A stretch of DNA of 64,000 nt from Euonymus europaeus (lineage: Eukaryota > Streptophyta > Magnoliopsida > Celastrales > Celastraceae). The notes below the pieces were generated by a model that was given only the letters and a program-made list of their open reading frames with translations, searched no databases and had not been told where the DNA came from. The stretch spans positions 26,555,555-26,619,554 of the forward strand of contig OY756963.1 of assembly GCA_963580455.1 (NCBI GenBank). Direction: 5' to 3'. Shown in pieces: positions 21,411-39,687 of this stretch (positions are counted from its first letter, which is position 1; each line of letters opens with the position of its first letter). The translations under genes were made by a program, and so were the position numbers.

Positions 21411-21489
21411 GCCATTGATCAGATAATTGTAGTCTGAATATTGAAGTCGACATCGTATTTTCCGTAAAATATATCATCACACCAATGGC
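21411..21489 (-). ncRNA. C/D box snoRNA, predicted guide for 25S rRNA Um144
   Basis: Read on the minus strand, a perfect 7-bp terminal stem (GCCATTG with CAATGGC) encloses box C GTGATGA (21480-21474) and box D CTGA (21422-21419). The 12 nt CAGACTACAATT just before box D, with two spacer bases, are complementary to AAUUGUAGUCUG of plant 25S rRNA as I recall it. The base paired five positions upstream of box D is U144, which I recall as a methylated position in plant 25S rRNA. An internal CGATGTC could be box C'. A T-run follows the 3' stem. It lies ~100 bp downstream of a second C/D snoRNA on the same strand, a typical plant snoRNA cluster. The structure is seen directly; the rRNA match is from memory. 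Confidence 0.85.
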
Positions 21490-21591
21490 TCTAACTCAGT
21501 TATCAACAAAGTTCGAAAATTAATTAAAGACAATGGAAAAGCAACTCCAACAACAGAGCAAAGAGAGAAAGATGCTCAAGACAAGAGGATG

Positions 21592-21680
21592 GAGGCTCAG
21601 AAGGATCCATTGGTGATTTTTAATCACAAAAGGGAAATTCAATCCCTCATAAAATAGGTAGTTTTCAACATCACTGCCTC
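21592..21680 (-). ncRNA. C/D box snoRNA, snR41-like, predicted guide for 18S rRNA (yeast Am541 equivalent)
   Basis: On the minus strand, a 5-bp terminal stem (GAGGC with GCCTC) flanks box C GTGATGT (21674-21668, one mismatch to RTGATGA) and box D CTGA (21600-21597). The 12 nt CCAATGGATCCT one base before box D are complementary to AGGAUCCAUUGG of plant 18S rRNA, recalled from the segment just before GAGGGCAAGUCUGG. The box D plus five rule points to the A of AGGA, matching yeast 18S Am541, the snR41 target. A possible box C' is TGTGATT near 21628. It sits upstream in transcription of the second snoRNA and downstream of a telo-box and site II promoter, so the pair is probably cut from one Pol II precursor. 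Confidence 0.82.
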
Positions 21681-21912
21681 ACTCATCCTCTATTGAAAGA
21701 ACCAATCCAGAGAAACAGACACAGAGAGCGATACGTATATAATCAAAACATCATTGAAACAAAATTCATCACAGAGAGAGAGAGAAGGAGAGACGTGAAG
21801 GAAATCAGACAACCAGAGCAACAATCAGAGATAGAAAAACAAACTAAGACAGAGAGAGAGCCGCGAACAAGCAGTTTGTGACTAAACATTGATCAGAATA
21901 TATAGAACACTT

Positions 21913-22221
21913 GGGTTAGGGACTTAGGGTTAGGTTTTCTCGAGTGGCGGCGATATGCGATTTGGGGAAAATTCTTTTATCGAATTAGGGCTAATTTCAT
22001 GGGCTTGTATTGGAATTTGGGCCTCCCTTTAGAAATATTGCAGCCCAAATTATGGTAACAGTAAGTCAGTAACGGATAACAACCCTAGGAATGGATCCAT
22101 TACATCTTCATTCAAAATTATAACAGGCTTATTCAAGGACTTATTATATCAAGTCATGACCAGCAGATCTAAAAGTTACAGGCCCAATTTGAAGCCCATC
22201 AATTATAGTTCTTGATGGGCC
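21913..22221 (-). promoter_or_regulatory. Telo-box plus site II promoter for the snoRNA pair
   Basis: On the minus strand, AAACCTAACCCTAA (21937-21924) plus a further CCTAACCC lie 230-250 bp upstream of the first snoRNA. Three site II words lie farther upstream: 22018-22023, 22181-22186 and 22216-22221. This pairing is the known promoter layout of many plant snoRNA clusters and ribosomal protein genes. CT-rich sequence between 21770 and 21865 would form the leader. The region also overlaps the probable 3'UTR of the IDD gene, which is on the same strand, so readthrough is an alternative source of the transcript. Confidence 0.65.
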
Positions 22222-32255: not shown

Positions 32256-33204
32256 GGAGCGATCAATAATAGCATGAAATTACCATAAAGTTCGTATTGC
32301 TCTCCCTTCATGTGTCAAAACAAACGGGGGCATTTTTGTCCATTTGTTGAAGTCCGTAATTAAAAATAATAATTATTAAGTGTTAATTTATTTTTGGAAC
32401 GTAAAATTAGGAGTGACAAAACTCTGTCCTAATGATCGAATTTGTCCGACCTTTATTGAACTAAGTTTGGATATATTCTGTATGTCGGATGTCGGAAATT
32501 TGAGTCCAAAGACAAAAATTGTTCGGTTTAAAATGGGGTAAGAGTCCAAACATAATAATTTTGTTTGATTTAATTATTAGGAGTTCGGATCTTAACTCGG
32601 ATTGAATTATTATAGAAATTTAAATTAATTTATATGTGATCAATTAAGTACGTCTGAAAATCCAAATAAATATGAGTCCGAACATCAAAATATTTCGACT
32701 CAAAACTGACCCAAAACCGATTTTTCCACTCTTACAAATAATGACCCTCTTTGAACAGCTGAGATTGGCCTATCTAACTTCATAATTTATCTCGTATTTT
32801 AAAATGATATATATAATATTTATCCTGAAAACTTACTACCAAGCCAACCCGTTGGGGTTTGGGCCACATCCTTTTCTTGAACATGAAATCCATTTCCATC
32901 GATGTAAGCCCATGCATTCACCTAGGCTAGGAGGAAGAACAAGGATGAGAAGTAGACTTGGGCTTGAAAGGAATAAGTCGTGGCATGTGGGCTTTAGGAA
33001 GCCCAAACTATTTTGGTTTGATGGGCATAGCAACATGATTGGCTCGAGTTTTTATGATGAACACGGTATGGGCTTTTATAGAGAGGCCCAGCCTCATTCC
33101 ATTTTGCAGATAAACTCATAAACGTTTCTAGTTTTCATCAGATCAGCTTTCTTTATTATTATTTTTAATTAATTGTAGATGCTAGAGAAATTAAGAGGGA
33201 TTAA

Positions 33205-37684: not shown

Positions 37685-39687
37685 AATTAATAGCTCTCTT
37701 TCACGACGGATTTGAATCTAACTACAAACCATGGTAAAGTTTATAGTTTTCTAATCTACTGATGCCATAAAACTGAAGTACCGAGAGAATGATGCATATA
37801 CATGCTTTAATTTTGAAGGGGTTTGTTCTAATCTTGTCATAGATAGCGTTGGCATAAAAACCTTTGGGTTTGTCTCCTGATTGAGTACTGTGGTTAGTTT
37901 AACAAGAATGGGAAATTTCACTTGGAGTTTGTATTTTGATATTTTCACTTTAATTTAACGAGATTTTTCCGTCCTCTTTTATCAAAAAAAAAAAAATTAA
38001 TGAGATTTTTCGAGAGGAGATCCATATATTCAGGATAATTGAGATGGAAATTTTCTTTTTCATTGGTTTGAGTTCAATTCGATTGTCGATTTTAGGTATC
38101 TATTTTTAGGGATTTGCTTGACAGTTTTGAATTGAATTTGATTATCAATTCTTATAAGGGTTTTGCTTTGCCCGTTTTGAATTGAGTCGCCAAAACAATT
38201 GGGGTCGTTGATTCGTTTACTGATGGAATAAATTGTTAGGGTTTTCATTTCAGCTGTTTTTCATATATCTGTGTGTATATAATTGTTGAGTTTAAAGTTA
38301 ATTTGTTGCCGATTCTATTAGGGTTTTATTGCCACTCCAATTTAATGAGATTTTTGAAAGGATATTCATTATTCATATGTAGGACGCGCGAGATGGCAAA
38401 ATCCTGTTTTCCATTTGAAGTTTGATTCTATATATTATCGAGTTTTGGATTCAATTATTAGGGTTTTTTGTTTTGCTAATTTTAATTGAGTCACCAAAAC
38501 AAATCAGGATCCTTATATTAATTAATTGATACGTAATCCACATATTTTAGGGTTTTCATTTATACTGGTCAAATCACTTATGGTTATAAAGTTTTGAGTT
38601 AGTTCATTAATGATTGGCAGCTAACTAACAATATTTAATTTCCTGAGAAATTTCGGTTAACTCATTTATATATATATTATTTACCTTTCTCGCCTATTTC
38701 ACCTGAAGGAGGAGCTTAATTAGAAAATGGGGTTAATTCATGCATCGACAAATAGTTTTGTGGTTGCATTGTAATTAGCCAAAGCTTCTGATGATCAGTT
38801 CTGAGTTTAGCATCATTATTCATGTTTTCACTTGAGATCATTTGAAGAAACAATGAAAATGAAAGTTTTGACTGGTTTATTTAGAGACAAATTGAGATTT
38901 TATATATATTTTTTGGATATTTCTTGTCTCCATATTCTGAGAAGTTTTGGGCTTATTTTACTCACTGCGACAAGCCTTTTCTTGGTGCTTCAATCGCCTA
39001 CCATCCAGGTGGGTACAAAGCTACCATTGCCAAACCCTCTGATGCTAATATCTCTCTCTCTGCATGCTGCCTTTTTTTGACCATTTACTATGTATGTAGC
39101 AAGCTAGGCAATTATAAGCTACAGAAAAAACAAAATTATTCAAGAACAGTTTTTTTGGATCGATGCGGAGACAGACAGACATGCACACCACCCCCCACCC
39201 CCTTAGTTTTCTTACTGAAATTCCCTTTCATTCCTTTTCTTTATGTTCCCGTGAATCTTCTCCTTCCTCGATCGATCTGTTCAACAGAGAGTTTCCCAGC
39301 CTTAACAGCTGAATCTTCCAAGCTTGAGATTTCTGATTCTAATGACTCCCAGCCCCGGCCACCAACCACAAAGTATATATACACATATATATGTTGTATA
39401 TTAGCTTATAAATTGCTGTACGTGCATGTTTAGTACTTTCAAGAGTTACAACGGGGGAACAATGCCACCAGTAGTCTGTACGTAGTCTTCAATGGTTTTA
39501 CATTAATTCTGGTTTTCTTCATGAAAAACCACCCACAATAATGTCTTGATATTTCTGCCTCTTGCTACTTCTTTTTCAGTCACTTTTATTTGTTTGGATC
39601 ATCTTCCAATTATTAGCGACCTGGAATGACCTGACCTTAGAGAGTTCTGTCTATAAAGCAGATATGACCCACTGTTCCTAAAATTAA
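37685..39687. other. NF-YB5 3' flank, no gene seen
   Basis: AT-rich DNA. The phrase 'ttagggttttcattt' and similar TTTAGGGTTTT words recur at 38230-38570, probably by chance in AT-rich DNA. Open frames at 38832-39433 have no family match I know and no codon structure to support them. Confidence 0.4.

Follow-up and report, generated by a model that had tools for sequence, protein, structure and literature searches.

We analysed a 64,000-nt stretch of the Euonymus europaeus genome (contig OY756963.1, positions 26,555,555 to 26,619,554; hereafter, the window) around a predicted box C/D small nucleolar RNA (snoRNA). A reading of the sequence alone had described this element as a second C/D snoRNA and a guide for methylation of 25S ribosomal RNA (rRNA) at U144, and had named a covariance search and alignment of the guide to 25S rRNA as checks.

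A snoZ155-family snoRNA and its guide

The minus strand between 21489 and 21411 encodes a 79-nt C/D snoRNA of the snoZ155 family, and all the snoRNA elements described are confirmed to be present. The covariance model of Rfam family RF00326 matches positions 21413-21487 with a score of 58.2 bits, against a gathering threshold of 43, which places the locus in the family (E = 8.2e-7 in the 64-kb window); the alignment spans the full model, from 1 to 81. Box C (GTGATGA, 21474-21480, conforming to RUGAUGA) and box D (CTGA, 21419-21422) are enclosed by a terminal stem in which GCCATTG (21489-21483) forms seven perfect pairs out of seven with CAATGGC (21417-21411). Together these are the features of a box C/D guide snoRNA. 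RNA folding recovers both arms and lengthens the stem to 12 pairs, wobbles included, with a z score of -2.61 (four of 200 shuffled sequences fold equally well or better). The boxes, the terminal stem and the stretch comprising guide and box D (CAGACUACAAUUAUCUGA) match the RF00326 consensus; the middle part, in contrast, is shorter and diverged. When the locus was used to search phage records, no matches were obtained.

The 12-nt guide CAGACTACAATT (21425-21436, minus strand) ends two bases before box D, and the A at 21427, fifth before the box, pairs with 25S U144. As reference we used an assumed sequence for the first ~180 nt of 25S rRNA, as the sequence-only reading had done for its start. 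The 494 CTGA sites in the window (261 and 233 on the two strands) were ranked by how long an exact antisense match to this segment stops 0-2 nt short of the CTGA. The snoZ155 site ranks top with 12 nt, the runner-up reaching 9. In 200 letter-by-letter shuffles of the 25S segment, no 12-nt match arose anywhere in the window; the best was 11 nt in six of the shuffles and 10 nt in 29. Sequences that could serve as a real eukaryotic 25S reference were also sought: there were no matches in viral contigs and 33 loci in genome contigs, none of which was flagged as eukaryotic ribosomal DNA by a simple flank check. A search by eye led us to propose no D' guide, because about 9 nt lie between box C and a D'-like CGGA.

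U144 is a 2'-O-methyl site in Arabidopsis 25S rRNA, mapped by RiboMeth-seq; according to a review, tomato and tobacco carry Um144 too. The predicted target nucleotide is identical to that assigned to the guide of Arabidopsis SnoR36 (PMC8053127, table 1). Judging from the pairing, snoZ155 most likely guides methylation at 25S U144, as had been proposed.

A partner snoRNA and upstream promoter motifs

A snoR41-family C/D snoRNA (RF00205, 61.8 bits against a gathering threshold of 40) lies at 21590-21682, upstream of snoZ155 on the same strand, and the two form a cluster. They are the only two Rfam matches in the window at gathering thresholds; ARAGORN finds no transfer RNA there. The box D guide of snoR41 predicts as target an A within GGATCCATTGG of 18S rRNA (assumed sequence); in Arabidopsis, SnoR41Y has been assigned to 18S A545 and 25S U1067.

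Further upstream are a TATA-like site (TATATA, 21899-21904) and a telo-box (AACCCTAA, 21924-21931), both on the minus strand, and seven Site II elements (TGGGCY on either strand) between 22000 and 22239. An upstream telo-box with TGGGCY elements, a TATA-like site and at least two snoRNAs on one strand characterize the telo-box/Site II type of gene, and the locus has all of them. At the sequence level, the arrangement resembles the Arabidopsis polycistronic snoRNA genes of this type, with their promoter motifs and clustered C/D snoRNAs (PMC4660826). Upstream of the cluster, in the same orientation, is an IDD zinc-finger gene.

Elsewhere in the window, a further stretch carries seven Site II elements (32860-33090) and may serve a ribosome-related gene as promoter. 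Four AACCCTAA telo-box words, all on the minus strand, occur within about 320 bp at 38236-38554.

A second, altered copy

DNA similarity identified one other copy of snoZ155 in the genome. It retains box C, its stem arms are complementary, its guide can still form most of the pairs, and the order of the two snoRNAs is preserved; its box D reads TTGA and its score, 36.5 bits, falls under the RF00326 gathering threshold. The gap between this second cluster and the IDD open reading frame exceeds that in the window by about 2.3 kb (L036 5796-8711), and neither Site II elements nor a telo-box occur in the 600 bp adjoining its snoRNAs. The longer gap could be an insertion that separates the promoter from the second cluster. 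Inside it, the Rfam model of the MIR6445 precursor scores 32.3 bits, well short of its gathering threshold of 100 (L035 2891-2996). MIR6445 is a poplar family. The duplicate looks worn, which is only a mild surprise.

Interpretation

Could the resemblance be fortuitous, box-like motifs combined with a lucky guide match? The pattern GTGATGA-N40..70-CTGA occurs once in the window, with 1.5 occurrences expected from shuffles, so the boxes alone are within chance; the snoRNA call is convincing because of the family score and the guide. With an E value that strongly favours one specific snoRNA family, a guide in register at a length that no shuffle attained, a second snoRNA close upstream on the same strand and the conserved order of the pair in the other copy, coincidence is scarcely credible. 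A silent locus in the window, with the working U144 guide made elsewhere, deserves slightly more weight, given the features kept by the second copy and the possibility of further copies beyond the one that DNA similarity revealed. Yet it is the window copy that is intact in boxes, stem, guide and promoter motifs, while the sole other copy found has the altered box D and the sub-gathering score; silence is therefore improbable.

Very probably, then, the locus is a two-member telo-box/Site II C/D snoRNA gene. One transcript would carry snoR41 followed by snoZ155; snoZ155 would be trimmed out and bound at its C/D motif by small nucleolar ribonucleoprotein (snoRNP) proteins, its box D guide would pair with 25S rRNA, and fibrillarin would methylate the 2'-O of U144. 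This scheme is built on what was observed: the sequence, the family membership, the promoter motifs and the pairing with the assumed start of 25S rRNA. For the steps from transcription through processing to methylation in this plant, it draws on established knowledge of C/D snoRNPs.

Altogether, these data support the sequence-only reading, and extend it by naming the Rfam family, describing the promoter motifs and adding a second copy, which is altered. The snoRNA family and the promoter type are known ones, as are guide, target and mechanism, and the altered duplicate is a modest addition. The value of the locus lies in a clean annotation: a known plant guide for rRNA methylation, the motifs of its promoter and the snoRNA that accompanies it. 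The pair of one intact and one altered copy provides a small natural example of the fate of duplicated snoRNA genes.
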